From: Blautia hansenii
GTDB lineage: Bacteria > Bacillota > Clostridia > Lachnospirales > Lachnospiraceae
Assembly (NCBI RefSeq): GCF_013304445.1
Contig: NZ_JAAITA010000003.1
Coordinates: forward strand, 124,001 to 188,000
DNA: 64,000 nucleotides
Reading direction: 5' to 3'
The notes under the pieces were generated by a model. It ran no database searches, was not told the DNA's origin, and was given only the letters and a program-made list of their open reading frames with translations. A program made the position numbers and the translations under genes. The first letter of the stretch is position 1; every line of letters starts with the position of its first letter. Shown one piece after another: positions 29,902 to 44,666 of this stretch.

Positions 29902-30294
29902 GTGGCTAGTACAAAATTCTATGGAACAGGAAGAAGAAAATCATCTGTAGCTCGTGTATACTTAGTACCAGGTACAGGTAAAATCACAATCAACAAAAGA
30001 GATATTGATGAATATTTTGGATTAGAAACATTAAAAGTTGTTGTTCGTCAGCCATTAACACTGACAGAAACAGCTGACAAATTCGATGTTTTAGTAAACG
30101 TTCATGGTGGTGGATTCACAGGACAGGCTGGTGCAATTCGTCATGGTATCTCCAGAGCATTACTGGAAGCTGACAGCGAATACAGACCTGCTTTAAAAGC
30201 AGCTGGATTCTTAACTCGTGACCCACGTATGAAAGAAAGAAAGAAATACGGTCTCAAGGCAGCTCGTCGCGCGCCTCAGTTCAGCAAGAGATAA
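29902..30294 (+). CDS. rpsI: 30S ribosomal protein S9
   Basis: 130 residues, GTG start after [42 protein letters not shown] and the universal C terminus QFSKR are present; the terminal Arg contacts P-site tRNA. The last 20 bases plus stop (30276-30295) act as the attachment site for a series of mobile elements downstream, each of which leaves this end of the gene intact. Confidence 0.97.
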
Positions 30295-30295
30295 T
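30284..30295 (+). repeat. left attachment core of element A (rpsI 3' end)
   Basis: GCAAGAGATAAT, the end and stop of rpsI, recurs exactly at 42638-42649 and 55413-55424, and with two changes at 54054-54065. Direct repetition around an integrase-bearing segment is the mark of site-specific integration. Confidence 0.75.
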
Positions 30296-30331
30296 TATTA
30301 TATCAAGAGAACATACAAAGAGAAGACTTAC

Positions 30332-30368
30332 AAACCCCGAAAAATCAAGGTTTTTCGGGGGTTTCTTT
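30332..30368 (+). terminator. rpsI terminator supplied by element A
   Basis: AAACCCCGAAAAA, six-base loop, TTTTTCGGGG then GTTTCTTTAT. It lies inside the element, yet has the same form as the hairpin at 42682-42713 that ended rpsI before element A arrived. Confidence 0.85.
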
Positions 30369-30419
30369 ATGTTTTAATAAATGTATAATTCTTGTGAAAA
30401 AGTACAAATTTCTATGCGT

Positions 30420-30451
30420 AGCCAACAAGCAGGAAACAGGCAACCAACAAT
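30420..30451. repeat. integrase arm-type sites, left end of element A
   Basis: Two copies of a CCAACAA motif (GCCAACAAG at 30421 and ACCAACAAT near 30443). The same pair occurs near the right end at 42580-42600. The stretch 30420-30438 is repeated exactly, inverted, at 32849-32867. Probable arm-binding sites of the tyrosine recombinase. Confidence 0.55.
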
Positions 30452-30495
30452 TCGGATTGAATAAAGAAAGGGTTTTCTGCAAGTGTTCCGTAACA

Positions 30496-30524
30496 CAGAA
30501 AAAAGAAGGTCATCACTGACCTTC
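30496..30524 (-). terminator. terminator of the leftward integrase operon
   Basis: GAAGGTCA (30505-30512) and TGACCTTC (30517-30524) form a perfect hairpin that overlaps the end of the RHH gene. On the minus strand a T run follows. Confidence 0.75.
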
Positions 30525-31079
30525 CTTCATATCTTTCCACATATGTCTTAATTCATTGACTGATTTGAATTCCCATACCTGACCATTCTTGAAGATGATT
30601 TTGTGGTCATCTATCCCTGCAATATCCTTGAAGTAGCACCTGCACACTTGCCACTTCAGAAGTTGTTCATATGTTTTTGAATCAAACCCACACATTTCTT
30701 CAGCTGTCCTGATGGGATGTGTTAATTGCATGATATGCCTTAATTCCTTTGTTGTCCTACATAGGATTTCATCAGAACCATCAGAATCATTGATGAATCC
30801 TTTCTTCAGTTTGATGTAATATCCTGTTGTTGGAAGATAGGATGCATTTTGAATCATAGGATGATATTTTTCTTTGACTTCCCATCTTTTCAACATTGAC
30901 ACCATATCATCTGATTTATGTTCTTTTTCAATGTCTGCCCTGATAAGTCTTGCAACATATTCATTCACACTGATTCCAATGATGGAACTGACTTTTTTCA
31001 ATCTGTCCTTTGTTCCAAGTGGAAGTGCTAATTCTAGCCTATCATATTTTGTGATTCTGTTCTTCTTTGTCTTTTCCAT
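30513..31079 (-). CDS. RHH-type DNA-binding protein of element A
   Basis: 188 residues. Residues about 12-60 look like a ribbon-helix-helix or Arc-like region (LELALPLGTKDRLKKVSSIIGISVNEYVARLI). The rest is unrecognised and ends WKDMKEGQ. It follows the integrase by 13 bases in the same unit, so it may regulate integration or excision. That role is inferred from position only. Confidence 0.65.
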   Translation of the reverse strand: MEKTKKNRITKYDRLELALPLGTKDRLKKVSSIIGISVNEYVARLIRADIEKEHKSDDMVSMLKRWEVKEKYHPMIQNASYLPTTGYYIKLKKGFINDSDGSDEILCRTTKELRHIMQLTHPIRTAEEMCGFDSKTYEQLLKWQVCRCYFKDIAGIDDHKIIFKNGQVWEFKSVNELRHMWKDMKEGQ

Positions 31080-31092
31080 TTATACCACCTTA

Positions 31093-32154
31093 TCAAATTT
31101 TGTTGATTGCATCAAGTAATTCTTCAATTTCAAAATGCGTATATACAGTTTCTGTGACACCTTGTCCTTTATGACCAACAATCTTCTTGATGATTCTTTC
31201 ATCAACCTTTTCAGAAGAAAGAAGACTGATGCAGGTGTGTCTTGTTTCATGTGGTGTATGCTTCATTCCCATCTGTTCCATCATTGGTGACCAATATGAA
31301 TCATAATAATTTCTATATGTGAAGTGTTTTCCTTCAGGTGTAGAAATTAAGTATTCACAATCATTCATATCCATCCATTCTTGAAAGAATGGAAGAACCT
31401 TGTCAGCAATAGGAACAGTTCTGATTCCTGCTTCAGTTTTTGCCTGAACTACTTTGAACCATTTTTCTTCAAGGTTTACATTTTCTTTCTTCAGGTCAAG
31501 CAGTTCCCCTATTCTGACACCTGTGTATATCATTATAAGGATGACTTTGATATATGGTGAAGAATCTTTCCACTTCCAAACTGTTTTGACTTGTGCCTTT
31601 GTGAATGGTTTCCTGTTGAATGAATTTGGATTTCCTGCCTGTGTAATATCAACATATCTGACCATGTCCCTTTTGTCCTGTGTGACTATTTCATGCATAA
31701 CAGCATAGTCATACATCAATCCCCATAGTATTTTTAATTTCTTCAGTGTTGGGGTGTTTTTGCCTGATTCATCAACAATCATTTGAAGATGGTCAAGTTT
31801 GATGTCTGTGACCTTCATGTGTTCAATTTTTCCACAAAGTCTGTATGATGCTTTATAACCTTTTACGTTAGAATCACTGACCTTTGGAAAATGAACATCA
31901 GACCATTTATCATATAATTCTGCAAAAGTCATTCTATCAAGATTTAGGTCATAAGGGTTTCTATTATAATCTGCAAGTGCAAGCATTGCTTCTTTTTGTG
32001 TTGCATATGTACCAACAACCTTTCTTTTCTGAATGACTTTTCCTGATTGCAAGTCAATGTCCCAACCTTCAGTGATTCTGACACACCAAGGTTTTCTTCT
32101 CTTTCCTGATAATTTATAAACTGAACCGTATCCATTTGGTTGACGCATAATCAT
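31093..32154 (-). CDS. tyrosine recombinase (integrase) of element A
   Basis: 353 residues from the ATG at 32154, preceded by AAAGGAAAGG; an upstream in-frame extension to 32223 is rejected. An N-terminal AP2-like arm-binding region (GYGSVYKLSGKRRKPWCVRI) and a SAM-like core-binding domain come first. The catalytic domain has Arg in YTGVRIGELL, Lys in AKTEAGIRTVP, HETRHT, GHKGQG and Tyr in VYTHF. Probably recombines the rpsI 3' end with the element's own core. Confidence 0.93.
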   Translation of the reverse strand: MIMRQPNGYGSVYKLSGKRRKPWCVRITEGWDIDLQSGKVIQKRKVVGTYATQKEAMLALADYNRNPYDLNLDRMTFAELYDKWSDVHFPKVSDSNVKGYKASYRLCGKIEHMKVTDIKLDHLQMIVDESGKNTPTLKKLKILWGLMYDYAVMHEIVTQDKRDMVRYVDITQAGNPNSFNRKPFTKAQVKTVWKWKDSSPYIKVILIMIYTGVRIGELLDLKKENVNLEEKWFKVVQAKTEAGIRTVPIADKVLPFFQEWMDMNDCEYLISTPEGKHFTYRNYYDSYWSPMMEQMGMKHTPHETRHTCISLLSSEKVDERIIKKIVGHKGQGVTETVYTHFEIEELLDAINKI

Positions 32155-32276
32155 TACCTTTCCTTTCTTGTGTAAAATAAAAGGTATGTGATATAATAAT
32201 CTTGTTAAAGGGGAATATATCACATTCCTTATTCAAGACCATGATGGATGGCAGTCCATTGTGGTCTTATTTCATA

Positions 32277-32759
32277 TTAGTTCCATTTTCCATTGACACC
32301 TGCAATTTCATCTAAAGCAGAATGAATTCTGCATATAGTACGAAATCTTGGTTTCTTGGTCAATCCCCTTCTCAGGTCGTTGACGGTGGATTTTCCAAGA
32401 CCTGCACATCTAGCAATAGTTTTATCAGTGACACCCAATTCTTTCTTTCTGTTGTTCAAATAGGTGTTGTCGTAGTTTAGGAAGAATCCCTGTCTGTCTG
32501 CATATACATTGAAAACATTTTTTACAATCTGAATGAAGTCTGCATAACCATTGAAGTTATGGCAATCAACACCTGTTTCAAGATGGTCAAGCCAATCCCT
32601 AACCATTGCAAGGTTTATTGAATCAGTAATTGTCACCTGAATCTGTTCCATATCATCAGTCATGATAAAGAATGTTGGTTTCATTTCCTTATCAGGTTTT
32701 ACACCCATATCAACAATAAGTCCTTTGTAGTTCCATAATGCTTTGAATCCTGTCTTCAT
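32277..32759 (-). CDS. HTH protein of element A
   Basis: 160 residues from the ATG at 32759 (AAAGGA ten bases upstream); in-frame ATGs further up (32843) are possible. The C-terminal region about 100-150 reads as a helix-turn-helix (LGVTDKTIARCAGLGKSTVNDLRRG). The N-terminal part is unassigned. Lies between the integrase and the repressor in the leftward unit. Confidence 0.65.
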   Translation of the reverse strand: MKTGFKALWNYKGLIVDMGVKPDKEMKPTFFIMTDDMEQIQVTITDSINLAMVRDWLDHLETGVDCHNFNGYADFIQIVKNVFNVYADRQGFFLNYDNTYLNNRKKELGVTDKTIARCAGLGKSTVNDLRRGLTKKPRFRTICRIHSALDEIAGVNGKWN

Positions 32760-32848
32760 AATAATTTCATCCTTTCTTGTTTTGAGTAACCACAGTTCTG
32801 AATCAGTTAGTTCCTGACCCTTGGATTTCCAAGGAAAAACCATGATTT

Positions 32849-32867
32849 TGTTTCCTGCTTGTTGGCT
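32849..32867 (-). repeat. inverted 19-bp copy of the left-end arm site
   Basis: The reverse complement of this stretch is identical to 30420-30438. It lies just upstream of the HTH gene's start, so the integrase might also bind here. Confidence 0.6.
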
Positions 32868-32885
32868 GTTGTTGTTAAAAAATAA

Positions 32886-32935
32886 AATAGACACCCATTC
32901 ATGCAGGTTCTATCTGCTTTGAATGGGTGTCTATT
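32886..32935 (-). terminator. terminator of the element A repressor gene
   Basis: 32886-32900 and 32921-32935 are a perfect 15-bp inverted repeat with an inner GCAG/CTGC stem. The minus strand continues into a T-rich run. It overlaps the stop codon of the repressor. Confidence 0.8.
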
Positions 32936-33308
32936 TATCTTTGTACTTCAGCATCAGCAAATCAATATATTCTGATGCTTTTTGTTTTCCATCAGGATTC
33001 AGGGAAAGGAAACTTCTGAAAATGTCAATGTCATCTTCATTATAGTCAGGAAGACTGTCCCACACTTGAACTTCGTTTGACAGTGACTCTGTATCAATGT
33101 AATCATCCCAGTTTAAATCAGGATTGATGATTGTTGGTGATACATTAAGACATTTAGCTATTTTCAAAACAGTTCCAACTCTAGGTTGTGTTTTTCCATA
33201 TTCAATGTCCTGAAGTCCTCTGACAGTCATTTCAATGTATGATGCAAGGTCTTTCTGTTTTATTCCTTTTTTCTTTCTGATGGTTTTGATATTGTCACCT
33301 ACTGTCAT
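32931..33308 (-). CDS. XRE-family repressor of element A
   Basis: 125 residues from the ATG at 33308. N-terminal HTH (NIKTIRKKKGIKQKDLASYIEMTVRGLQDIEYGKTQPRVGTVLKIA) typical of phage and island repressors. The acidic C-terminal half is short, with no peptidase Ser/Lys pair, so release would be by a partner protein rather than self-cleavage, as with PICI Stl. Divergent from the Cro-like gene. Confidence 0.82.
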   Translation of the reverse strand: MTVGDNIKTIRKKKGIKQKDLASYIEMTVRGLQDIEYGKTQPRVGTVLKIAKCLNVSPTIINPDLNWDDYIDTESLSNEVQVWDSLPDYNEDDIDIFRSFLSLNPDGKQKASEYIDLLMLKYKDK

Positions 33309-33446
33309 GTTATCACCACCATGTTCCCATTCTAACATATGCAGTGATAACTGTGAAGTATTTCTTCAGCAAGAATCTTTGATGCAGTCATGTTTTAGAA
33401 GTATATTGCTAACGAAGTGCGAAATAAATTCACAGTGCAATATCTA

Positions 33447-33475
33447 TTGAAAAACGAAGTAAAACGTGTTAAACT
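33447..33475 (+). promoter_or_regulatory. rightward promoter and operator region of element A
   Basis: TTGAAA (33447-33452), 17-bp spacer, TAAACT (33470-33475). The spacer and flanks are full of related boxes (ACGAAGT near 33414 and 33455, AACGTGTT, ACACGAATT, AACGTA, CACGTTGAAGTTCGTG), probably repressor sites. Confidence 0.55.
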
Positions 33476-33585
33476 ATAAAAAACACGAATTAAAACGTAT
33501 TTTCATTATTAGAATAGCACGTTGAAGTTCGTGTGTCAACTATTTAAGCTAAATTATTTAATTAAAAAGGAAAGGGTGAACAATT

Positions 33586-33795
33586 ATGAGAATTGACACA
33601 GAAAAACTTGATGTTTTGATTGCGAATAAGGGATTGATGTTGAAGGATGTTGCATCTGCTTCAGGAATCACAGAAAATTGCTTCAGAAATATCAGAACAG
33701 GGAAAGCAGTACCAAGACTTAGAACAATAGGAAGAATTGCTTCAGCACTTAATGTTAGTGTAAAGGATTTGATTATCAAGGATGGTGAAGACTAA
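33586..33795 (+). CDS. Cro-like small HTH protein of element A
   Basis: 69 residues, a single XRE helix-turn-helix (IANKGLMLKDVASASGITENCFRNIRTGKAVPRLRTIGRIASAL). First gene of the rightward unit, opposite the repressor. Its TAA shares a base with the next start. Ribosome site AAAGGAAAGGGTG. Confidence 0.82.
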   Translation: MRIDTEKLDVLIANKGLMLKDVASASGITENCFRNIRTGKAVPRLRTIGRIASALNVSVKDLIIKDGED

Positions 33796-35732
33796 TGGGT
33801 TGGAAAGGTAATAAAGAAGTATTCAAAGGATATGCAACAGGTGATGGAAAGAATCCAACCATGAAGGTCAAGGATGCAAAACTTCTTTCATGGGAACAGA
33901 TTGAAGGAAATCATTCCTTTGGTGCAATCCTGAACAAAGATTATGTGGACATTAGTTTTGACAGTGATGAACTGTCACAGAAGTTTTGGGATATGGCAGA
34001 ACAGAACAATTGGAATTGTCTGATTCTTGAAAACCCAAACAATGGACATATTCACAGTTATTGGAAAGACACCCATCACAGAATTGAAAAGGGTGGAAAG
34101 GACAAGAAACTTGCAGTTGGATTGATTGCTGACATTCATTCAGGTTCAACATACATTCCTTTGAAGGTGGATGGTGTGGACAGATTTCCACCATCCTTTG
34201 AACCTTCACAGGTGGATGAAGTCCCTGATGAACTTCTTCCTGTGAATACACAGATTGACCTGATGGACTTGTCAGAAGGTGATGGAAGGAATGACAGCTT
34301 GTTCAGATATATCTTGGTGCTTCAGGGTGCAGGGATGGAAGAAGATACCATCAGAAGGGTATTGAAAAATGCAAATGAATTTATTCTGTCGGATGCACTT
34401 AGTCAGGATGAATTAGATGTCATCTTGCGTGATGAAGCATTTGAAAAACCTGTGTTTTATAATGGAAAGACTTTCATGCATGACAAGTTTGGTGATTATA
34501 TGATGAAAAAACATTATATAAAAAGAATCAATGGTCAACTTCATTGTTATAGAGATGGAATTTATATGACAGGTGGAAAGTATATTGAAAATTTGATGAC
34601 TGATGAAATAAGAAATATTAAAGCTAACCAAAGGACAGAAGTTTTGAAATATATAGAAGTCAGAATTCCTGACAGTGAAGATGTTCTGATGCAGGAAAAT
34701 TTAATTGCATTCAGAAATGGAATTTTAAATATTAAGACAGATGAACTTCTTCCCTTCAGTCCTGAATACATTGTCACCAATAAAATTCCTTGGGACTACA
34801 ATCCTGAAGCATACAGTGAACTGTGTGATAAGACATTGGACAAAATCAGTTGCAATGATAAAGAAATCAGGGCATTGCTTGAAGAATGTGCAGGATATTG
34901 TCTGTATAGGAAGAATAAATTGCAAAAATCCTTTATTTTAACAGGTTCAGGAAGCAATGGTAAATCAACTTACTTGGAAGCATTGAAATGTATGCTTGGA
35001 AGACAGAACTATTCAGCACTTGACCTTGCTGAATTAGATGATAAGTTCAGCACTGTCATGTTGGCAGGAAAACTTGCAAACATTGGTGATGATATCAGTG
35101 ATGAATTCCTGAAGGGGAAAACACTTTCAGTATTTAAAAAAATTGTCAGTGCAAACGATATCAAAGCAGAAAACAAAGGTCAGGATGCATTTACATTCAA
35201 GCCATACACAAAACTGTTATTCAGTGCAAACAATATTCCAAGAATAAAAGTGCAAGGATTTGAAGCAATCAAAAGAAGAATTTTAATCATACCATTCAAT
35301 GCAAAGTTCAGCAAGGATGATGATGACTATAATCCTGATATTGAAGACGATTTAAAAACTTCATCATCAATGGAATATTTAATTTCCATTGCATTGAAGG
35401 GATTGAAAAGAGCATTGTATAACAAACAATTCACTGAAGCATCTAAGGTGAAGAATGAAGTGGAACAGTTTGAAAAAGACAATAATCCTATTCTTGGATG
35501 GTTGGAATCATTGGAAGAATCTGAAGATGATTTGATTTCTTATCTATGTAGAAATTCAGTTGCAGAATTGTATTTGCAATTTGAAATATTTTGTCAAAAT
35601 AATGGATTTGAAGTTGTAAAGAAAAAAACATTTTTGAATGATTTAAAGAAAAGATTCAATTTATACAGTGACAGAATGAAGACAATGGTGAATGGTCAAA
35701 GACCTACTATGTTATATCCTATTGCCATGTAA
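33795..35732 (+). CDS. P4-type primase/superfamily 3 helicase of element A
   Basis: 645 residues. The N-terminal about 230 residues resemble the primase-associated or bifunctional region of phage replication proteins. The C-terminal half is a D5-type helicase with Walker A ILTGSGSNGKST (about residue 385), an acidic B region GKLANIGDDIS, and the SF3 motif C area YTKLLFSANNIP, then RRILIIPF. Drives replication of the excised element, acting with the candidate origin directly downstream. Confidence 0.88.
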   Translation: MGWKGNKEVFKGYATGDGKNPTMKVKDAKLLSWEQIEGNHSFGAILNKDYVDISFDSDELSQKFWDMAEQNNWNCLILENPNNGHIHSYWKDTHHRIEKGGKDKKLAVGLIADIHSGSTYIPLKVDGVDRFPPSFEPSQVDEVPDELLPVNTQIDLMDLSEGDGRNDSLFRYILVLQGAGMEEDTIRRVLKNANEFILSDALSQDELDVILRDEAFEKPVFYNGKTFMHDKFGDYMMKKHYIKRINGQLHCYRDGIYMTGGKYIENLMTDEIRNIKANQRTEVLKYIEVRIPDSEDVLMQENLIAFRNGILNIKTDELLPFSPEYIVTNKIPWDYNPEAYSELCDKTLDKISCNDKEIRALLEECAGYCLYRKNKLQKSFILTGSGSNGKSTYLEALKCMLGRQNYSALDLAELDDKFSTVMLAGKLANIGDDISDEFLKGKTLSVFKKIVSANDIKAENKGQDAFTFKPYTKLLFSANNIPRIKVQGFEAIKRRILIIPFNAKFSKDDDDYNPDIEDDLKTSSSMEYLISIALKGLKRALYNKQFTEASKVKNEVEQFEKDNNPILGWLESLEESEDDLISYLCRNSVAELYLQFEIFCQNNGFEVVKKKTFLNDLKKRFNLYSDRMKTMVNGQRPTMLYPIAM

Positions 35733-35734
35733 TT

Positions 35735-35965
35735 ATGACACATGACACGACATGACACAAAAAGTATTTATATTACAACAATAAATAAGTATATATATAT
35801 ACATGAAATATTTATACTACTTTTTATATTATATAAAATATAAAAAGTAAGGAAATTTCTTGTCATGTGTCATATCGTGTCCTGATATATGAAAAACCTT
35901 GTAAAATCAAGGGTTTCAGAAGGACATGAAAAAGGACATAGGACAGGACACGAAAAAGGACATGA
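35735..35965. other. candidate replication origin of element A
   Basis: About 250 bases without a gene directly after the helicase gene. GACAYGA-type boxes recur at both ends. TGACACATGACA (35736-35747) is inverted at 35861-35872. An AT-only core holds the perfect 13-bp inverted repeat 35818-35830/35837-35849. On the right, (G)GACAYGAAAAA repeats run up to 35965. Iteron-like boxes around an AT-rich core next to the initiator gene fit an origin. Confidence 0.55.
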
Positions 35966-35985
35966 AGAATAGAAAGGGAAAAGTT

Positions 35986-36369
35986 ATGAATTTTTATGAA
36001 GATATTAAAACAATTATGCAGATGAAAGATTTGAAATCAGTTGCTTGGAAAGTCACAGGTGAAAATCCTGCATTTGAATGTGAAAGAGTGCAAGTAAGAT
36101 TTGAAGATGTGGAAGGGTCTGTATATGAATTAGTTATTCATGATGAAAGAACCATGTATAAAAAGTATAGAAATCAAGAAGAAGTGATTTTAAATGTTGC
36201 ATTTTGTCATTTTGGAATCATTCCATCAGGTGAATGGATAGGCATAACAACAGAGATTGAAACAATGGTGAATATGTGCAGGGAAAAAGCAAAATATGAT
36301 GGAACATTCTTTGTGAATGAAGAAAGATGCATTTGGAATGAATTTGAAGTTCCTGTTCATGTATTTTGA
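35986..36369 (+). CDS. hypothetical protein of element A
   Basis: 127 residues from the ATG at 35986, chosen because AAAGGG lies seven bases upstream; an ATG at 35926 would put the origin-like repeats inside the protein. Mostly polar, no motif recognised. Follows the helicase and origin region, so a replication accessory role is possible. Confidence 0.65.
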   Translation: MNFYEDIKTIMQMKDLKSVAWKVTGENPAFECERVQVRFEDVEGSVYELVIHDERTMYKKYRNQEEVILNVAFCHFGIIPSGEWIGITTEIETMVNMCREKAKYDGTFFVNEERCIWNEFEVPVHVF

Positions 36370-36426
36370 TTTACCATGCAGATTCATGATATTTAGGGTT
36401 TTTGACTATATAAGGAAGGGAAAGAA

Positions 36427-37062
36427 ATGTATTGTATAGATGAATCGGTTTTGAAGATGATTCCTTCAGATTCAATGTCATGCAATTTCAAGGTGGAAGG
36501 AAGAAGACACACTGTGATGCTTGAAGTGGTAAAAGTTGGATATGGGGACAGAAGATATTTTGTCTGTCCCTGCTGTGGAAAGAAAAGAACTATCCTATAT
36601 TATATCAACCATGGATTCAAGTGCAGGGATTGTGGTCACTTCAATCCATACAAGAAGATACAGAATGGAACAAAGGGTGGAAGTTCTGAAATTCAATACA
36701 GAATGGAAAGGTATGCGAAAAAGAATAATATTGAAATTGTCAGATTTCCATTCAATTATATGGACTACATTCAGGATGAAAGACTGATGAAGAAAGGAAA
36801 GGATTCATTCCGAATGAAGTTGAAGGTCTTGCAGGCATTGGAAAACATGAGATTCCAAACCATTATGATGAAGAAGACATTCAGCAATCAAGCAATTAGG
36901 AAAGTAATCAGTGAAAAGCATCCAATACTTCAGAAAGTATCATTGAAGGATATGACCATGATTTGGTATGATTGGGAATCTGATTCAGGGAAAGGATTCA
37001 CCATTCCTGCATCACATAATAGGGTCAGTCAATTGACAAAAGATGCAATGAAAGGGATATAA
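36427..37062 (+). CDS. zinc-ribbon hypothetical protein of element A
   Basis: 211 residues. A Cys4 knuckle (CPCCGKK near residue 48 and CRDCGHF near residue 71) suggests zinc and perhaps nucleic acid binding. The basic C-terminal half is unassigned. Similar small zinc proteins are common in phage early regions. Function unknown. Confidence 0.7.
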   Translation: MYCIDESVLKMIPSDSMSCNFKVEGRRHTVMLEVVKVGYGDRRYFVCPCCGKKRTILYYINHGFKCRDCGHFNPYKKIQNGTKGGSSEIQYRMERYAKKNNIEIVRFPFNYMDYIQDERLMKKGKDSFRMKLKVLQALENMRFQTIMMKKTFSNQAIRKVISEKHPILQKVSLKDMTMIWYDWESDSGKGFTIPASHNRVSQLTKDAMKGI

Positions 37063-37100
37063 CCAACACACAGAATATAAAATAGGAAGGAAATAATAAG

Positions 37101-37319
37101 ATGAAAGAATTCAAATATGAAATCAAGAAACACATTGCAACAGTTAGCAAATCAAATGATGGACAGATTGCATTGGAAGTCAATCTGATAAGTTATAATG
37201 ATGCACCTGCAAAGGTGGATGTTAGAACATGGAACAAAGAAACAGGAAAGATGTATAAAGGAATCACCCTGACACATGAAGAAGCTGAAAACCTAGGTCA
37301 GATTCTTCTTGGAATGTAA
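37101..37319 (+). CDS. PC4/YdbC-like single-stranded DNA-binding protein
   Basis: 72 residues. VSKSNDGQIALEVNLISYND, KVDVRTWN and KGITLTHEEAENLGQIL match the YdbC/PC4 fold, a small dimeric ssDNA-binding and transcription cofactor domain. Probably aids replication or transcription of the element. Confidence 0.72.
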   Translation: MKEFKYEIKKHIATVSKSNDGQIALEVNLISYNDAPAKVDVRTWNKETGKMYKGITLTHEEAENLGQILLGM

Positions 37320-37339
37320 TGCAGGAAAGGACAGTGTAG

Positions 37340-37588
37340 ATGTCAAAGAACAGGAAGTCATTGGAAGTTATGAGAAATCTTCTTGGTGAAGAACTGTTTC
37401 AGGTTATTACAGAAACTTTTGCAGGGGAAAAGATAAAGTTTCCAAAGAACGTGGAATCATTAGACAGGGAAGGAAGAAACAAGAAGATTCAGGATGATTT
37501 TGAAAAAGGTGAGAAAGTCACAGCCTTGATGAAACAATATGAACTTTCAGAATCACAGATATATAAAATTATTGGAAGGATGTCTTGA
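37340..37588 (+). CDS. Mor-like transcription activator
   Basis: 82 residues. The C-terminal helix-turn-helix (KIQDDFEKGEKVTALMKQYELSESQIYKIIGRM) and FAGEKIKFPK resemble the Mor/C activator family of Mu-like phages. Mor proteins turn on middle genes. Here it precedes the element's own sigma factor. Confidence 0.65.
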   Translation: MSKNRKSLEVMRNLLGEELFQVITETFAGEKIKFPKNVESLDREGRNKKIQDDFEKGEKVTALMKQYELSESQIYKIIGRMS

Positions 37589-37618
37589 TGACTTCCTTCT
37601 TTTTTTATTTGGTCAATT

Positions 37619-37918
37619 AAGAACAGTAACTATTGATAATGAACCTTGGTTTGTAGGTAAGAGGTAGTAACATTCAAGGATATTGATACCGTACATAAAA
37701 GACCTGATGGGACTGCAAGACGAAACTTTAATCAGAATCGACAGCGGTTTATCAGCGGTGTTGACTTCTTCAAAGTTTGTGCGGATGAAATTCGTACACA
37801 CAAAATTGCCGAAATTTCACCAAAATCCAACGAACCTTTAACTCTTATCACAGAAACAGGTTACCTGATGTTAGTGAAGTCCTTCACAGATGATTTTCTC
37901 ACAAGTGACCATGAATGA
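37619..37918 (+). pseudogene. phage antirepressor (ORF6N-type) remnant
   Basis: Reading the plus strand gives TVTIDNEPWFVGK then a stop, and in a continuing frame DIDTVHKRPDGTARRNFNQ, RFISGVDFFKV and LITETGYLMLVKSFTDDF. These are the Bro/ORF6N antirepressor blocks joined out of order, with an early stop and a lost C terminus. Codon use (CGG, CGT) differs from the element's other genes, pointing to a separate source. Confidence 0.7.
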
Positions 37919-37984
37919 AAGTATGAATCCATTTTGTATAGTGATATAATTATAATAGAACAGATATAACAAATGAAGGGTAAA

Positions 37985-38614
37985 ATGACTGATAAAGATA
38001 AGTATTTTGAACAGGCAACACAAAAGACAGGAATCCTGTCAGATGTGGTTAAAGTTCTGAATAGATTTGTGGAAGATTATGATTTTGCTAAATTGAATAT
38101 GAAACAGAGAATAACAGAACTGAAGAACAGTCCTGTTCCTGAACAGAATCAGATGGAAATATTTGATGATTTCAATGCAAGAATTGAATATATCAGAAAT
38201 GATTCTGTCAGAAGTATTCAGGACATTGTAAAGCAGGTGAAGACGGAAATATCAAGAATTATTGCTTCAAACCTTCCTGATGGTGCAATGGATGATATTC
38301 AAAGTATTGAAAGGATGGAAGGTCATCTGACAGATGAAGATGTGAAAGCATACTTGAATAAATATAGGAAATGTTATCTTGTTACCAAAACACTGTTCAA
38401 ATCAATGGATACAGTGCAGGCAAAAAGACTTGGTATTGATTTCATCAGTGCTGATGACATCATTGAAAGTCTTGAATCCATTGAAAATGTTTCTGTCAAT
38501 CTCATCAAGAAATACAATGGTTTTGTCCCTTATGAATTTGCCACCATGCTTGATGGGAAACCTATTCAAACTGTGAATGATGCCTTCAATTCATTTGCAA
38601 AATTCTTCATGTAA
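37985..38614 (+). CDS. hypothetical protein of element A
   Basis: 209 residues from the ATG at 37985 (GAAGGG four bases upstream; an ATG 12 bases earlier overlaps that ribosome site). Mainly helical and charged, with no known motif. The C-terminal phrase LDGKPIQTVNDAFNSFAKFFM resembles in style the end of the protein at 39895, so the two may be distant paralogues. Confidence 0.65.
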   Translation: MTDKDKYFEQATQKTGILSDVVKVLNRFVEDYDFAKLNMKQRITELKNSPVPEQNQMEIFDDFNARIEYIRNDSVRSIQDIVKQVKTEISRIIASNLPDGAMDDIQSIERMEGHLTDEDVKAYLNKYRKCYLVTKTLFKSMDTVQAKRLGIDFISADDIIESLESIENVSVNLIKKYNGFVPYEFATMLDGKPIQTVNDAFNSFAKFFM

Positions 38615-38688
38615 CAATTTTATACAGTAGGTGAATTTCCTTTCTCTGTTTTGATAACAGCTTTCTGTTTCATCTGTTGTGAAAAATT

Positions 38689-38730
38689 GTAATAGGGATA
38701 ATCTTCATGAGTGTCCCTTATTTTTTAGAA
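38689..38730 (+). terminator. probable terminator ahead of the sigma factor gene
   Basis: AATAGGGA and TCCCTTATT pair with one bulge, followed by TTTTTT. If it works, the sigma factor gene would be read from its own promoter or by read-through. Confidence 0.5.
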
Positions 38731-38768
38731 AGGTGGGATGTTCTGATGGTAAAAAATACAAAAATAGG

Positions 38769-39728
38769 ATGTCAATGGATTTGTTTATGACCAATGAAGA
38801 ACTTGTTGAACAGATTCAAAATGGTATCAATGTTCAGGAAAACATGGGAATTCTTTATGAGCAGAATGAAGTTTTCATCAGAAGGATTGTAAAACCTTAT
38901 ACTGCATATGCAGATATAGATGACCTGATGCAAGAAGCATATATTGGACTGCATGATGCTGTTGAAAAATTTGATTCTTCCAAAGGATTTTTATTTCTTA
39001 CATATGCACCATATCAAATAAAAAATCGTTGTATAAACTTCATTAATCATTCAAGAGATAACATAGTTCCTACTTACATGATTTCAAGAATTTCAAAGTA
39101 TAAGAAACTTGTTGCAGAACACAATGGTTCTGTGAATGGGGAAATGGTTAAAAAAGAATTAGGACTCACAACACATCAATATAAGGAATTAATAAAAACA
39201 ATGCATCAAATGTCAACAATTAGTATTGATGTGACAATGAAAACAGATTCAGATGATAATATGACCATTGGTGAATTGATTCCTGATGATGGTGTGGATA
39301 TTGAAACGGATGCAATTGAAAATGATTGTAAGATGAGACTATGGAATATAGTTGATTCTATTTTAGATGACAAACAAAAGGATATAGTCATCAGATATTA
39401 TATTAATCAAGAATCATTAATAGATATGGCTATGGAAATGGGATGCTCACGTCAAAATATTTCAGTGATTAAGAGAAAAGCAGAATCTATATTGAAGAAC
39501 ATAACAGAAATTCAAGAACTTGCAGAATTTTGGGGTTATGATTCCATGATGGCATATTCAGGAAAGAATTCAGTTGAAGATATAGTAATCAGACGTATTG
39601 AATATGAAGAAAAGGAACACAAGATGATGGACATGTTGGAAAAGACCTTCAGAAAACTATATGAAGAAAGGAAGATTGAAAATGATAACACAGGAACAGA
39701 AAGACAGATACAAGTATCAACAGACTGA
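38769..39728 (+). CDS. sigma-70-family RNA polymerase sigma factor carried by element A
   Basis: 319 residues from the ATG at 38769 (38775 also possible, with AATAGG six bases before). Region 2: DIDDLMQEAYIGLHDAVEKFD and FLFLTYAPYQIKNRCINFI. Region 3-like part to about residue 170. Region 4 HTH: NQESLIDMAMEMGCSRQNISVIKRKAE. About 75 C-terminal residues form an extra charged helix region. Probably directs host polymerase to the element's late promoters, or to a helper phage's. That is inference. Confidence 0.82.
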   Translation: MSMDLFMTNEELVEQIQNGINVQENMGILYEQNEVFIRRIVKPYTAYADIDDLMQEAYIGLHDAVEKFDSSKGFLFLTYAPYQIKNRCINFINHSRDNIVPTYMISRISKYKKLVAEHNGSVNGEMVKKELGLTTHQYKELIKTMHQMSTISIDVTMKTDSDDNMTIGELIPDDGVDIETDAIENDCKMRLWNIVDSILDDKQKDIVIRYYINQESLIDMAMEMGCSRQNISVIKRKAESILKNITEIQELAEFWGYDSMMAYSGKNSVEDIVIRRIEYEEKEHKMMDMLEKTFRKLYEERKIENDNTGTERQIQVSTD

Positions 39729-39879
39729 ATCAGGGAAACAGGTGATTCAGTTGTTGGAAAAGATGAAAAATCAATACAATGATAAATTAAGTATTCATAA
39801 AAGTGCAATCAAAACAGGAAGATTGTCACCGCTTGTCAATGGTAACACAGGTGAAGTTGATAGATTTATAGAATATTAG
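39682..39879 (+). CDS. small hypothetical protein of element A
   Basis: 65 residues, starting inside the end of the sigma factor gene (ATG after AAGGAAG). Rich in Lys and Gln. No motif seen. The position suggests translational coupling to the sigma factor. Confidence 0.55.
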   Translation: MITQEQKDRYKYQQTESGKQVIQLLEKMKNQYNDKLSIHKSAIKTGRLSPLVNGNTGEVDRFIEY

Positions 39880-39894
39880 GAAGGATGATACAAA

Positions 39895-40479
39895 ATGAAA
39901 AATACAAACAGAGCAATTAAGGAATATAGTGAAGCAGTGAAACAGGCAAAAAGTGTTTATAATCAGGCAGTAAAACACATTGAAGGGAATTATATCAAAG
40001 GTAGTTCAGTCTATAAGGATGCAATGAAAACAGCCAAGGAAACCTTTGAAAATACAGTTAGAGAAATGAAAAGTGTGTTTGTGAAACAGGTTGAAAAGGA
40101 TTTTGAAGAAACAAGAACGTCAATCAAAAACATTGTAGTGACTGCACCATCTGAAGAACTTCTTGGACTTCTTCCAATGATTAAGAATGGAATGATGACA
40201 GAAACAGAAATTCAGATGTTTTCTGATAAATTTGTAGGAAATTACATGGATGAAAAATTGCTTGCTGATGCAAAGGGTGAACAGTTTAAAACTATTGAAT
40301 GGATGATGGATGATTTGAATAATCTTGAATCTAAAGTAAATGATTTCTTTGACAATTACAAAGGTGATGACCTTGCAAAGATTTCAATTCATACAGCCAC
40401 AATGATGAATGGTTCGCCAGTTGAACTGATGAATAAAACTGTTGATGAATTCCTGACAAGATATGCAGGTCAGGAATAA
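39895..40479 (+). CDS. helical hypothetical protein of element A
   Basis: 194 residues. The N-terminal about 80 residues are Lys/Glu/Ala-rich and likely coiled coil; the remainder is acidic. Located where tailed phages have small structural or chaperone genes, just before the tape-measure gene, but nothing in the sequence fixes a function. Confidence 0.65.
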   Translation: MKNTNRAIKEYSEAVKQAKSVYNQAVKHIEGNYIKGSSVYKDAMKTAKETFENTVREMKSVFVKQVEKDFEETRTSIKNIVVTAPSEELLGLLPMIKNGMMTETEIQMFSDKFVGNYMDEKLLADAKGEQFKTIEWMMDDLNNLESKVNDFFDNYKGDDLAKISIHTATMMNGSPVELMNKTVDEFLTRYAGQE

Positions 40480-40496
40480 TGAAAGGGGGTGAGAAT

Positions 40497-40841
40497 ATGT
40501 GGAAAATCGTAGATAAGACAAAAACATCATATGATGATTCGTTTGAACACGTTGCATTCACAAATGATGCAACTGTTGCTAAAGCATTCAAGGAATCAAA
40601 TGACTATGAAGTCACAAAGGTAAATTTCAATAGTGATGCAATGGGTATTGAAGTGTATTCAAGACATACATGGTTTGAAGTGAGAGTTCCAAACACACAG
40701 AATGAGTATGTGACATTTAGACTTGTTGGATATTTTAGTAATTACGAAGAAGCAATGCAGTCTGTTGGTGGTCATTATACATTCAGAACAATTCACAAAG
40801 AATCAGACCTGATTATTGGTAGAGCATCTGAATTGTATTAA
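40497..40841 (+). CDS. hypothetical protein of element A
   Basis: 114 residues from the ATG at 40497, chosen for the strong AAAGGGGGTGAG just upstream. Mixed alpha/beta look, no known motif. Confidence 0.6.
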   Translation: MWKIVDKTKTSYDDSFEHVAFTNDATVAKAFKESNDYEVTKVNFNSDAMGIEVYSRHTWFEVRVPNTQNEYVTFRLVGYFSNYEEAMQSVGGHYTFRTIHKESDLIIGRASELY

Positions 40842-40881
40842 AAATTTGAATAAATAATGAATGAAAGGGGGTTGATGAATC

Positions 40882-41967
40882 TTGAATATATTTAAACTTG
40901 TCGGTTCAATCTTCATAAAGAATGACAAAGCAAATGAAGACATTGACAAGACATCAAAGAAAGCAGAAAGCATGGCTGAAAAAGTCGGTTCTGCATTTCA
41001 TAAAGCAGGTCAAAAAATCACAAGTGTTGGTAAAGCAATAGCACCTGTCAGTGCAGGTATGGCAACAGCACTTGGTGCATCTGTAAAATCTGCATCAGAT
41101 TTTACTAATGGAATGGCTAAAATGTCAACACTGTTTGATACTCAAAAAGTTTCAGTCAGTGACTTGTCAAAACAGTTCATCAACCTTTCAAATAAAACAG
41201 GACTTGCATCAACTGAATTAGCTGAAGCAGGCTATCAGGCATTATCAGCAGGTGTTGATGTCAACAATGCAGTTTCCTTTGTGGAAACAGCAGGAAATCT
41301 TGCAAAAGCAGGTTTCACATCCACAGCAACAGCAGTGGATGTTCTTACAACAGCAATAAATGCCTATGGAGAACAAGCAGGAACTGCTGAAGAAATATCA
41401 AATAAATTAGTTAGAACACAGAACCTTGGTAAAACCACAGTTGATGAATTAGCGTCTGCAATGGGTAAAGTTATCCCAACAGCATCTGCAATGGGGGTCA
41501 ACATTGACAACCTGACATCAGGCTATGTTGCACTTACTAAACAGGGTATTGCGACAGCAGAAGCCACCACATACATGAATAGTATGATGAATGAACTTGG
41601 TGATTCAGGAACTAAACTTGGTGGTGTAATCAAGGAAAAGACAGGAATGTCATTCCAAGAATGTATGCAGTCAGGAATGTCACTTGCTGATGTCCTTCAG
41701 GTCACAAAGCAATATGCTGACGAAAATGGAATTGCATACAATGAACTTTGGTCATCTGCTGAAGCAGGACAGGCAGTCAGAAATGATTGTCTGTTCTTTT
41801 TTCTGTCTTGGTGGTATGATAAGGATGAAGGAAGGTGTGTGTTATGCTGTCAGGTGAATTCTTGTCATTGTTTTGGAAGTATCTTCAATTTAATACTGAA
41901 GGTGATATCACAGGGATTTCTGAAGATGCACCTGATGAAGCAAAGAAAGCATTCAGGCACTTCATGA
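40882..41967 (+). pseudogene. phage tail tape-measure protein, truncated
   Basis: The first about 305 residues are a clear tape-measure N terminus: SKKAESMAEKVGSAFHKAG, the Ala/Thr-rich TM-like repeat with GLASTELAEAGYQALSAGVD, TTAINAYGEQAGTAEEISNKL, and ELASAMGKVIPTASAMGVN. At about 41793 the reading changes abruptly to Cys/Phe/Trp-rich nonsense (LFFFLSWWYDK) that overlaps another small gene in a different frame. The full protein should be two or more times longer, so this is a deletion product. The N-terminal part might still be translated. Confidence 0.75.
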
Positions 41968-41999
41968 AACTGATGCAAGACCCACACAGGCATTATTAG
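41844..41999 (+). CDS. small acidic/basic hypothetical protein of element A
   Basis: 51 residues (MLSGEFLSLFWKYLQF...DPHRHY), ATG preceded by GAAGGAAGGTG. Too short for most ORF lists. It lies in another frame within the garbled end of the tape-measure frame, just right of the deletion joint, and is probably the true gene there. Confidence 0.6.
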   Translation: MLSGEFLSLFWKYLQFNTEGDITGISEDAPDEAKKAFRHFMKLMQDPHRHY

Positions 42000-42054
42000 A
42001 AGGTTATTGATAATTTCTTGGGGTTATTATATAAAAGGTCAGGAAAGTGATAAT

Positions 42055-42228
42055 ATGACAAAGTTAGAAAAAGCATTACAATCATATATGAATGCATTTG
42101 ATAAAAGTTATCCTTTGGTTGCATCAATGGAAATGTCAGATGATGAAATCATTGATGATATTGAACAGTGCATTCAGTCAGGGACACCTGCTGAACCACC
42201 AACGCTTGAAGACGATATTGATTATTAG
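42055..42228 (+). CDS. small acidic hypothetical protein of element A
   Basis: 57 residues from the ATG at 42055, preceded by AGGAAAGTG. The acidic end is SDDEIIDDIEQ. No motif recognised. Part of the run of three small genes at the right end of the element. Confidence 0.6.
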   Translation: MTKLEKALQSYMNAFDKSYPLVASMEMSDDEIIDDIEQCIQSGTPAEPPTLEDDIDY

Positions 42229-42251
42229 CCTATGGAAGGATGTTGATAATA

Positions 42252-42458
42252 ATGATGTGGTATAAGAACAATCCTAATGACAAGGTATGGTGGAAAGATA
42301 CATCTGAAAAGTGCATTGGTGAATTTGTGTTTTCTTTTGATAAGAAGAAAGAATTCAACATGTTCAGAGATTATCCACATGAACTGACAGAAGAACAAAA
42401 ACAAATATTTGATGAAGAGAATCCATATTGGAAGGAATTCTTCAAAGATAGAAACTAA
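42252..42458 (+). CDS. small hypothetical protein, last gene of element A
   Basis: 68 residues (MMWYKNNPNDKVWWKD..., FSFDKKKEFNMFRDYPHELTEEQKQIFDEENPYWKEFFKDR). The Trp- and Asp-rich pattern looks like a conserved small domain of unknown function often found alone in Firmicutes, so it may be cargo. Start after GGAAGGA. Confidence 0.6.
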   Translation: MMWYKNNPNDKVWWKDTSEKCIGEFVFSFDKKKEFNMFRDYPHELTEEQKQIFDEENPYWKEFFKDRN

Positions 42459-42576
42459 AAATATGGATTTTTGCAGGAAAATAATATAAAATTAGTGGAA
42501 AAGTAGACAAAAAGACATGATTTTTGTATTAAAATGTAAGAAAAATAATTGGTTTTGTTGATGTCAAGATATATCC

Positions 42577-42600
42577 ATAGCCAACAAGTAACCAACAAAG
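42577..42600. repeat. integrase arm-type sites, right end of element A
   Basis: TAGCCAACAAG and ACCAACAAAG side by side, matching the left-end pair at 30419-30451, about 40-60 bases before the right core. Confidence 0.55.
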
Positions 42601-42637
42601 CCTTTGAAAACCTTGATTTTTCGGATGTCGGAACTAT

Positions 42638-42682
42638 GCAAGAGATAATCTGCTGTTCAAACCGTATCAAAATGGTTCAAAA
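42638..42682 (+). repeat. right attachment core of element A and left end of element B
   Basis: Starts with GCAAGAGATAAT. The whole 45-base stretch is repeated exactly at 55413-55457, so the flank right of the core is a shared element left end (type 1). Confidence 0.75.
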
Positions 42683-42716
42683 ACCCCGGAAAATCAAGGC
42701 CTTCCGGGGTTTTACT
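42682..42716 (+). terminator. former rpsI terminator carried by element B
   Basis: AACCCCGGAA and TTCCGGGGTT around AATCAAGGCC, then TTTACT. Nearly the same design as 30332-30368. Confidence 0.8.
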
Positions 42717-42734
42717 ATATCTAAAAGGGCTGAT

Positions 42735-42951
42735 ATAGTTTGACTAAATTTGGCTAAACGAGAGCCATTTTCACCCAATTTTTAGTGGTCCGCAAGTGGT
42801 TAACCGGCCAAAAAGAGGGCAAAAAGAGGGGCGAGTGGTTCCCAAAGTGGTTAACCGAGAGCCGATTTTGGGGGTGTTTTGGGGGGCGCTTTTCAGCCCT
42901 ATTTCCCCTCGTTTTTGGCTGTGGCAGTTTGGCATAGTTTGACCTAATTTG
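42735..42951. repeat. direct-repeat region at the left end of element B
   Basis: Three pairs of direct repeats: 42735-42752 with 42934-42951 (two mismatches), AAGTGGTTAACCG at 42794 and 42845, and TAAMCGAGAGCC at about 42756 and 42852. No gene. Placed ahead of parA, they may be partition, replication or relaxase-related sites. Function unknown. Confidence 0.5.
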
Positions 42952-42976
42952 AATAATTGAATATGAATTTGATACA

Positions 42977-43006
42977 GCACTCAGTATAATGACTGGGTGC
43001 TTTTTT
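42977..43006 (+). terminator. terminator left of parA
   Basis: GCACTCAGT and ACTGGGTGC (one G-T) around ATAATG-like loop, then TTTTTT. Confidence 0.75.
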
Positions 43007-43040
43007 CGTTTCAGGAATTAGCATTCCGGCGATAGAAAGA

Positions 43041-43079
43041 GCCGTCACTTCATTTTTCATTTTGGAGTGGCGGCTTTTT
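43041..43079 (+). terminator. second terminator or attenuator before parA
   Basis: GCCGTCACT (43041-43049) pairs with AGTGGCGGC (43066-43074, one G-T), followed by TTTTT. Two terminators in 100 bases before parA could act as attenuators or insulate the element. Confidence 0.7.
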
Positions 43080-43124
43080 CTATTTTCAGAAGCAACAGCA
43101 ACAATCAGAAATGAGGTGAAGTCA

Positions 43125-43565
43125 ATGAACACGCAAATCATCGCCATCTCCAATCAGAAGGGCGGCGTTGGCAAAACCACCACCTGTGCCAATCTTGGAA
43201 TCGGTTTGGCACAGGCCGGAAAGAAAGTCCTGCTGATCGACGGAGACCCACAAGGGAGCCTAACCATCAGCCTGGGCAATCCCCAACCGGACAAGCTGCC
43301 CTTTACGCTGTCGGACGCTATGGGGCGTATCCTGATGGATGAGCCGCTTCGTCCCGGTGAGGGTATCCTGCACCACCCGGAGGGTGTAGACCTGATGCCT
43401 GCGGACATCCAGTTATCCGGTATGGAAGTATCTCTGGTAAATGCCATGAGCCGTGAGACTATCTTGCGGCAATATCTGGACACGCTGAAGGGGCAATACT
43501 CCCATATCCTCATGAAATCTATCACTGGTGCTATTTTACTTTCTCTTGAAAATGGGATATACTAA
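43125..43565 (+). pseudogene. ParA-family ATPase, 3' truncated
   Basis: Starts [20 protein letters not shown] (deviant Walker A) and continues as a ParA/Soj protein to about residue 130 ([12 protein letters not shown]), where Walker A' and the catalytic Asp region (normally D-C-x-P) should follow. Instead the frame runs into unrelated [16 protein letters not shown] and stops. 146 residues against about 250-270 normal. Left over from the element's partition or transfer module. Confidence 0.82.
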
Positions 43566-43625
43566 TAACTATGAAAATATATTCTGCCACTGAGTGTGGA
43601 CAGTTTTTAGATAAGGAGGACGTGT

Positions 43626-44666
43626 ATGAAAAATCAATTAACGCCAAGCAGTTCCATGATTCTGGAAATTCGAGAGTTGCTGGAAAATTCCAGAAAAAAT
43701 GTTGCCCAACAGGTTAATACGCAGCTACTGACAACCTACTGGAATATTGGACGGATTATTGTGGAATATGAACAGCAAAACCAGGTTCGTGCAGATTATG
43801 GAAAGTAAACCTTAAAGGAACTTTCTAAAGAGCTGACACAGGAATTTGGAAAAGGTTTTTCACGATCCAATCTGCAAAATATGCGGGCATTTTATCTTGC
43901 TTATGAAAAATGCCAGACGGTGTCTGGCAAATTATCTTGGTCCCATTACTGTGAGCTTTTAAGCATTTCCGATGATAACAAGCGTAGCTTTTATGAAAAA
44001 GAGGCTGTCAATTCCGGCTGGTCAGTCCGGGAATTAAAACGACAGATTGGCAGTTCGTTGTATGAACGACTGCTTTTATCTGATGGAGATGCCAACAAGG
44101 AAAAGGTTCTTTCGCTGGCACAGAATGGAATTGAAATCAGACAGCCATCTGACATTATCCGTGACCCCTATGTGTTTGAATTTTTGGGTGTGCCTGAAAA
44201 TAAGCCCATGTTAGAAAGCGATTTGGAAAAAGCGCTTGTCGCACAAATTGAAAAATTTCTTTTGGAGCTTGGGCGCGGTTTTATGTTTGTTGGAACTCAG
44301 CAGCGTGTGACTTTGAACAATACCCACTACTATGTAGACATGGTATTTTATAACAAAATTCTTCGTGCTTATGTGCTAATCGAACTGAAAACAAAAAAGC
44401 TCACACCAGAAGCCGCAGGTCAACTTAATATGTACTTAAACTACTATGCTGCGGAAGTCAATGATCCAGATGATAACCCTCCTATCGGCATTATCCTCTG
44501 TACGGAAAAAGACAGTATTGCGGCAGAATATGCTTTGGGTGGCTTGTCAAACAACATCTTTGCATCCCGTTATGTTCTCTATATGCCCAATAAGGAGCAG
44601 TTGATTGCTCAGGTGGAAGCTGTTTTGAAAAGCTGGAACGAAAAGAAAGACAACGACCATGAATGA
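43626..44666 (+). pseudogene. DUF1016 (YhcG-type) PDDEXK nuclease gene with one in-frame stop
   Basis: Frame 43626-44666 gives a full-length DUF1016 protein: the N-terminal helical domain (LENSRKNVAQQVNTQLLTTYWNIGRIIVEYEQ), then SWSHYCELLSI, WSVRELKRQI and a C-terminal PDDEXK nuclease domain (FLLELGRGFMFVGTQQR, YYVDMVFYN, VLIELKTKK). A single TAA at 43806-43808 replaces one sense codon after YGK; the frame continues unbroken, and an ATG at 43881 could give a shorter product. Family members are linked to DNA processing and phage defence loci. The stop makes it a recent pseudogene or a case of restart. Confidence 0.8.

Follow-up and report, generated by a model that had tools for sequence, protein, structure and literature searches.

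In a 64,000-nucleotide stretch of the Blautia hansenii genome (contig NZ_JAAITA010000003.1, positions 124,001 to 188,000; the window), we analyzed an island, Element A, that spans about 12.35 kb between two direct repeats (30284 to 42649). Judged by its boundaries, gene content, and gene order, Element A is probably a largely intact, helper-dependent satellite resembling phage-inducible chromosomal islands (PICIs), inserted at the 3' end of rpsI and belonging to a family that encodes its own sigma factor. This sigma-encoding satellite family is apparently undescribed, and the combination of a Mor-family activator with a sigma factor appears to be new in satellites. Among the papers found in the open-licence literature, none describes a sigma-encoding satellite, judged by titles and the opening of abstracts and, for PMC12987554, PMC11364771, PMC10884400, PMC6092414, and PMC13376191, by the available text. 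Nothing was found there joining a Mor transcription activator with satellites or concerning sigma-factor satellites in the context of Lachnospiraceae prophages, and little on phage satellites in Clostridia. The first-pass annotation, made from the letters of the window, had known of no described island with this set of genes; the literature agrees, but relatives do exist among public sequences.

Element A is bounded by the 12-bp direct repeat GCAAGAGATAAT, the left copy of which forms the final codons and stop of rpsI; the limits first proposed coincide exactly with the outer edges of this repeat. Within the element, G+C content drops from about 0.44 to 0.32-0.37. In two genomes of the same genus (L200 and L201), the DNA directly past rpsI resembles the right flank of Element A (78% identity over 55 nt, E 5e-5), so the DNA beyond the right-hand repeat appears to be native. 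The leftward genes encode a ribbon-helix-helix-like protein, an integrase, a 205-aa helix-turn-helix (HTH) protein, and an XRE repressor. The rightward genes encode Cro, a D5 primase, two uncharacterized proteins, PC4, Mor, g11, the sigma factor, g13, g14, g15, a fragment of a tape measure protein (TMP), and products of small open reading frames (ORFs) (Table 1).

Table 1. Features of Element A, with positions in the window, strand, and the evidence for each assignment
Feature	Position	Strand	Evidence
Left attachment repeat GCAAGAGATAAT (end of rpsI with its stop codon)	30284..30295	+	sequence; same-genus empty sites
Ribbon-helix-helix-like protein, 188 aa	30513..31079	-	phrog_13890 1.4e-8
Tyrosine integrase	31093..32223	-	PF00589 2.7e-21; phrog_1 1.9e-58
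205-aa protein, weak C-terminal XRE-like HTH	32277..32894	-	phrog_6223 3.6e-4
XRE repressor	32931..33338	-	HTH_3 4.9e-14
Cro-like HTH	33586..33795	+	HTH_26 5e-10; L025 counterpart 74% identical
D5 primase-helicase	33795..35732	+	phrog_864 5.4e-151; D5_N 4.5e-15; DUF5906 1.1e-20
Candidate origin	35734..35965	+	iteron-like GACAC/TGTCATGTGTCAT repeats flanking AT-rich stretch; by eye
147-aa protein	35926..36369	+	homologues in L026, L060/L129
211-aa protein, zinc-ribbon-like segment	36427..37062	+	weak Pfam matches; homologues in L110, L145, L176
PC4-like single-stranded DNA-binding protein	37101..37319	+	PF02229 3.8e-7
Mor-family activator	37340..37588	+	PF08765 3e-13; late activator phrog_532 4.9e-14
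Putative Mor-dependent promoter	37905..37950	+	GTGACCATGAATGAAAGTATGAATC, 15 nt, TATAAT; box 25/25 in L025
g11, helical protein, paralogue of g14	37973..38614	+	
Sigma-70 family factor, 313 aa	38787..39728	+	Sigma70_r2 6.2e-13; phrog_351 3.4e-41
g13, conserved 72-aa ORF	39661..39879	+	7 members among fetched loci
g14, helical protein	39895..40479	+	AlphaFold2 mean pLDDT 90.7
g15, 120-aa protein	40479..40841	+	profile search of fetched loci: no homologue found
TMP fragment, N-terminal 298 residues, TTG start	40882..41775	+	PhageMin_Tail 1.2e-30; phrog_991 4.4e-56
Terminator-like block, the element's own	41761..41867	+	91% identical to L025 11449-11553
Small conserved ORF, DAPxExKxxFxxYM type	41843..42000	+	alike in L051, L052, L128 (by eye)
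g17, 73-aa ORF	42007..42228	+	homologues in L114, L060, L162, L049
g18, DUF7675 protein	42240..42458	+	PF24723 1.2e-31; in phage contigs too, e.g. L066
Right attachment repeat GCAAGAGATAAT	42638..42649	+	sequence

The 18 proteins of Element A were scanned against Pfam and PHROGs. The integrase, repressor, Cro-like protein, primase-helicase, PC4, Mor, and sigma factor named in the first-pass annotation were all present, and its candidate replication origin was recognized by eye as iteron-like repeats around an AT-rich stretch just past the primase gene. Among the scanned proteins, large terminase (TerL), portal, capsid, and lysis families were absent, as were small terminase (TerS) and relaxase or transfer families, in line with the initial description of an island with no packaging or conjugation genes. 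Element A holds neither the large terminase, portal, and major capsid genes of a complete prophage nor the capsid and packaging module that a capsid-forming PICI (cf-PICI) carries as its own. Capsid or terminase genes nearby, which the annotation had named as signs of a full prophage, were not found in Element A, and TerL was not convincingly matched anywhere in the genome, where the large terminase profile gave four weak matches (best 1.1e-5) in long frames read as other ATPases. Transfer by conjugation, as an integrative mobilizable element, is a very improbable reading of the locus: a neighboring island at the same site, Element B, has mobilization-like frames (by eye), but the relaxase and transfer families are missing from Element A, its primase is of phage type, and it also carries Mor and a TMP piece.

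Relatives were found through primase, sigma, and TMP searches; many are contig fragments, and the counts given here are not population frequencies. The nearest relative found, L025 (12.2 kb), is collinear with Element A in the shared genes from integrase to DUF7675, with identities of 36% for the integrase, 74% for Cro, 75% for the primase, 56% for Mor, and 59% for the sigma factor. The plan of integrase, repressor, cro, primase, and Mor-sigma operon is common to relatives in public contigs, with related islands in genomes labeled Lachnospiraceae, Oscillospiraceae, and other Clostridia, as well as in Tepidibacillus (which we take to be a member of the Bacilli); several sister islands derive from animal gut samples according to their records. 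After removal of loci shorter than 7 kb and of loci identical in the last 200 sigma residues, and with closed frames only, the fetched sequences comprised 78 distinct sigma loci, although the weakest matches (about 50-80 bits) could represent other sigma factors. Twenty of them carry an Element A-type primase, and among these we counted the integrase in 15, Mor in 13, TerS in 11, TMP in nine (including the partial copies of Element A and L120, the latter a 70-aa remnant), g11/g14 proteins in nine, rpsI in eight, and gp10-like proteins in five. Where the sigma factor is lacking, 20 primase loci reach at least 15 kb, and of these one has Mor (L049) and six have TerS. Late operons of sister islands variably hold a small terminase, a full TMP, or head-tail joining genes. 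The primase is rare, being present in 5 of 299 genomes of the family at E 1e-100. Sigma matches in 147 of 200 family genomes were rejected as a measure of island frequency; most lie near 1e-17, in long frames read as housekeeping SigA.

The rpsI gene adjoins 10 of the 78 sigma loci, Element A included. In seven of the nine sisters (L114, L116, L120, L123, L124, L128, and L133), a repeat of at least 12 nt of the rpsI end recurs at the far side, and the paired repeats delimit islands about 7.5-14 kb long. A far-side copy was also looked for in L112 and L113, and none was found. The L114 and L116 islands are inverted relative to the others, since rpsI lies at the end opposite the integrase gene. 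A counterpart of the 188-aa ribbon-helix-helix-like gene stands beside the integrase gene in L112, L120, L123, L124, L128, and L162. The left end of Element A supplies a terminator-like hairpin (30332-30364) where the rpsI terminator would stand, and this hairpin is 85% like the displaced rpsI terminator at 42681. In Anaerosporobacter faecicola (L133, 628-14546), a sigma island lies directly past rpsI with the rpsI-end repeat at 14533, and its right part encodes proteins that may be defense cargo.

Packaging genes were also sought in the relatives and their genomes. TerL was matched in 2 of 23 sigma-bearing viral contigs with phrog_2, which we take to be the large terminase family and which was matched in 3 of 3 phage controls. 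Of the 24 genomes with named islands, 23 had a TerL match at or below 0.001 (15 of them below 1e-10), and in none of the 24 did a match lie within about 88 kb of the island sigma gene on the same contig; these matches elsewhere in the 23 genomes may mark helper prophages. Pfam families were tallied in 150 frames taken from 18 loci (of 161 ORFs, 11 were left out as probably spurious or repressor-side, and one antisense frame was swapped for a TerS frame): TMP_3 was present in seven frames, TerS in six, DUF2577 in two, and PhageMin_Tail, HK97-gp10, and Phage_Mu_F in one each, and TerL, portal, and major capsid were not among the 25 of 31 families listed. In the corresponding PHROGs tally, the commonest tape measure family accounted for nine frames among the 25 of 144 families listed; this tally and that of NCBIfam (25 of 62 families listed) were not drawn on for absence claims.

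It is improbable that Element A is a decaying prophage, i.e., a temperate phage like L030/L033 whose head and tail genes are gone and which retains the integrase, primase, and a TMP stump. L030 and L033 do have a related integrase (54-60% identity) and primase (56-64%), and the TMP of L068, from the same contig as L033, is 74% identical. However, the Mor-g11-sigma-g13-g14 block matches L025 in content and order, not L030 or L033, in the fetched parts of which the sigma domain was not found; the short sigma matches in these phages are confined to residues 299-359 of the L025 protein, which form an additional C-terminal part. Moreover, 11 of 13 g11/g14 matches lie in sigma-bearing loci, the other two being in sigma-less fragments (L035 and L058), and so do 16 of 20 Mor matches; one further Mor match comes from a shorter stretch fetched from such a contig, and in the remaining three (L049, L054, and L058) the sigma gene is absent from the fetched part. 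The TMP piece also directly adjoins a terminator that L025 has too, without a TMP at that place, as would be expected after a capture.

The sigma factor matches Sigma70_r2 (6.2e-13) and, under its gathering score, Sigma70_r4 (0.001); a profile match to SigA structures spans regions 2 to 4 (best 7l7b, 3.5e-32). It thus belongs to the sigma-70 family with SigA-type regions 2 and 4, the latter by the SigA profile match. The first-pass annotation had started the gene at GTG 38679, where the longer ORF begins; alignment with relatives favors ATG 38787 as the probable start. In sigma-70 factors, particular residues read the -10 element, and in the helix concerned SigA TYATWWIRQAI is replaced by TYAPYQIKNRC in Element A, with relatives differing again in the alignment. 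These changed residues suggest altered promoter choice. Downstream of mor, a 25-nt box is identical in Element A and L025 and is followed 15 nt further on by TATAAT, both preceding g11 and the sigma gene with no good -35 element by eye; in 200 shuffles of the L025 stretch, none matched the box as well. Mu-type Mor activators use promoters of this layout, and the box with TATAAT at 37.9 kb is likely a Mor-dependent promoter. Several of 16 other mor loci have a TATAAT-like site past mor (by eye). The idea that the element brings its own transcription programme, first raised from the window alone, therefore finds indirect support in the co-occurrence of mor and sigma in relatives and in the identical box before the sigma operon in L025.

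The first-pass annotation further suggested that the island may seize or rewire late genes of a helper phage. It is possible, with a chance that we place a little below even, that the sigma factor serves mainly the satellite's own genes and leaves helper promoters untouched, Mor and sigma together forming a Mu-like early-middle-late cascade. The position of the sigma gene behind the putative Mor promoter fits such a cascade, and the residues of the -10-reading helix vary among relatives as if fitted to private promoters. On the other hand, a second conserved promoter assignable to the sigma factor was not recognized in Element A among the alignments listed, and the conserved promoters of sister islands look housekeeping or extended -10. 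The islands in L086 (12414-14791), L111, L115, L120, and L122 have at their end a 187-aa gene whose conserved promoter is accompanied by an operator-like inverted repeat, CTATT N7 AATAG. This promoter, conserved in 7/7 distinct upstream regions aligned (with a different spacer in L124), was considered as a sigma target and dropped, as it resembles a housekeeping promoter with an operator. Also at the end of these five islands lies the gene of a large protein, probably a surface protein, with a separate conserved motif upstream.

The TMP fragment was overlooked in the first-pass annotation. Its frame runs for 298 codons without a stop and continues to 41967 through the terminator; compared with 22 related viral loci, it shows 47-80% identity, with the best match at 80% over residues 1-298. 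Its upstream edge, ribosome site included, is phage-like (L065, L066), and its 3' edge falls in the terminator-like block also present in L025, where no TMP is found, so we interpret the piece as a captured gene part. The ratio of nonsynonymous to synonymous substitution rates (dN/dS) against 12 phage copies was 0.138-0.195, with several dS values above 1 and near saturation. Branch counts could draw on two useful sisters, L064 and L067 (L065 and L066 being near-identical to each other). Changes unique to Element A amounted to 25.8 silent and 32.2 replacement, against 12.3 and 21.7 for L064; in its own comparison, L067 had 10.8 and 20.2, against 26.2 and 35.8 for Element A. The Element A branch is thus no richer in replacements than either sister branch, a pattern that argues against old decay; the divergence may predate capture, in which case the low dN/dS is not evidence of post-capture selection.

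A function for this fragment, as a decoy poisoning helper or rival tail assembly or as a nucleus for chimeric tails, seems rather unlikely. In its favor are the uninterrupted frame, the low dN/dS, and the repeated presence in sister islands of a full-length TMP preceded by a conserved gene of about 120-160 aa, which by position probably encodes a tail chaperone. Chimeric tails are built by the PLE satellites of Vibrio cholerae, which supply a TMP of their own and also carry a putative chaperone gene, according to the available text of PMC12987554. Against it, only the N-terminal part is present, the start is TTG, the frame enters the terminator, and the divergence, with dS near saturation in several comparisons, may be older than the capture. 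The fragment may thus be a decoy or a relic. Shortened satellite tails were also considered and rejected, as full satellite TMPs measure about 640-1070 aa, a range that they share with phage TMPs.

Several observations weigh against Element A being an intact, helper-dependent satellite with a sigma-based programme. It lacks a small terminase, and its TMP is truncated and has a TTG start, so this copy may have undergone some decay. Its own genome yielded neither a resident helper prophage nor a second PhageMin_Tail protein. The 25-nt box was absent from 16 of 16 other mor loci. TerL and a related sigma factor occur together in L175 (52.6-kb contig) and L196 (29.7-kb contig), which means that satellites are not the sole carriers of related sigma factors, and the TerL test covered 23 of about 42 sigma-bearing viral contigs, many of them fragments. 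One sister-island frame among the 18 loci matches the minor head family Phage_Mu_F at 6.5e-18. As regards L175 and L196, some phages may use similar sigma factors. Since a resident helper was not found, mitomycin may be without effect on this strain. Phages in IMG/VR with a related integrase, primase, or TMP are candidate helpers by relatedness only.

For Element A as a satellite, the following cycle can be proposed. A phage event would relieve the XRE repressor, and the integrase would excise the island between the 12-bp repeats. The rightward early operon would yield Cro, primase-helicase, PC4, and Mor, with the primase starting at the adjoining iterons; Mor would then bind the conserved box and, with the -10 element, switch on the 37.9-kb promoter. 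The resulting late operon would provide the sigma factor, the helical g11/g14 proteins, and morphogenesis cargo, and the sigma factor would bring host RNA polymerase to late promoters of the satellite or the helper, at the helper's expense. Sister islands would divert helper assembly through a small terminase, a TMP with its probable chaperone, or head-tail joining genes, whereas Element A would have the captured N-terminal TMP fragment alone, perhaps as a decoy or relic.

We tentatively hypothesize, with confidence clearly short of even, that these islands form a widespread, undescribed Clostridial satellite lineage in which a Mor-then-sigma programme takes over host RNA polymerase while the helper grows and the satellites' own tail-assembly or packaging starters are swapped in. 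Known satellites interfere with helper late transcription, packaging, or capsid size; a sigma-bearing lineage would take the polymerase itself, making the timing and diversion of late expression testable with a single gene. If the hypothesis is true, use of a sigma factor would become known in satellites for the first time, and tail piracy would have a second origin in addition to that in PLEs. The repeated TMP, probable chaperone, TerS, or joining genes in sisters would suggest that tail and head-tail diversion is common and not special to Vibrio.

According to the available text of PMC6092414, PICIs are characterized by a conserved organization (integrase, replication module, and master regulator), a size of about 12-15 kb, a unique attachment site that prophages never occupy, the absence of phage structural and lytic genes, phage-dependent induction, specific packaging in phage-like particles, and interference with the helper. 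Element A corresponds in organization and size (about 12.35 kb); its rpsI site is shared with the seven sisters with repeats at both ends and is also used by Element B. Capsid, portal, TerL, and lysis families are missing, yet it holds the TMP fragment, and sisters hold full TMPs. Like Gram-positive PICIs, it has an attachment repeat, a divergent repressor, an integrase, and a primase with an adjacent candidate origin, and in the family TerS occurs in many sisters while TerL or capsid was not found; unlike them, Element A, known here from its sequence, has sigma, Mor, and TMP cargo and no TerS. The reading of Element A as a PICI-like satellite is well supported by size, layout, attachment repeat, iteron-like origin, the lack of any large terminase, portal, or capsid match, and the presence of sister islands, with TerS in 11 of the 20 sigma loci that carry this primase.

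PLEs of Vibrio cholerae, compared here through the literature, resemble the family in having their own TMP and probable tail chaperone genes; they differ in their host, in that a sigma factor is not mentioned in the available text, and in that Element A has a TMP fragment only (PMC12987554). In the same text, PLEs form chimeric tails with their own TMP and no other satellite is reported to encode one, while putative tmp genes in some cf-PICIs appear in the legend of Extended Data Fig. 10 (PMC12987554). Satellite tape measure genes are therefore not new. The cf-PICIs are similar as satellites with some morphogenesis genes, including putative tmp (PMC12987554, available text), whereas capsid and large terminase were not found in Element A. 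The IMG/VR phages L030 and L033/L068 share a related integrase and primase, a TMP in L068, and TerS resembling that of sister islands; in contrast, they are 37-kb contigs with TerL, and sigma and Mor are absent from the parts fetched.

Among the remaining proteins, the AlphaFold2 model of g14 (mean predicted local distance difference test score, pLDDT, in Table 1) is confident and helical, with two matches below 1e-3 to uncharacterized viral structures; no PDB match below 1e-3 was found. The model of the L086-type helical protein was poor (pLDDT 67) and was left out of the structure search. An hhalign probability of 86% between this family and the g11/g14 family is suggestive only of a link.

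Directly adjoining Element A is a second island, Element B (42638-55472), in tandem at the same rpsI site. It is flanked by a 60-bp repeat (42638-42697 and 55413-55472, 95% identical) and ends near an rpsI-like repeat at about 55402-55424. By eye, it contains ParA-like and mobilization-like frames, a two-component system with an ABC transporter, and two mutually similar nuclease-like (DUF1016-type) proteins, and several of its frames look broken.

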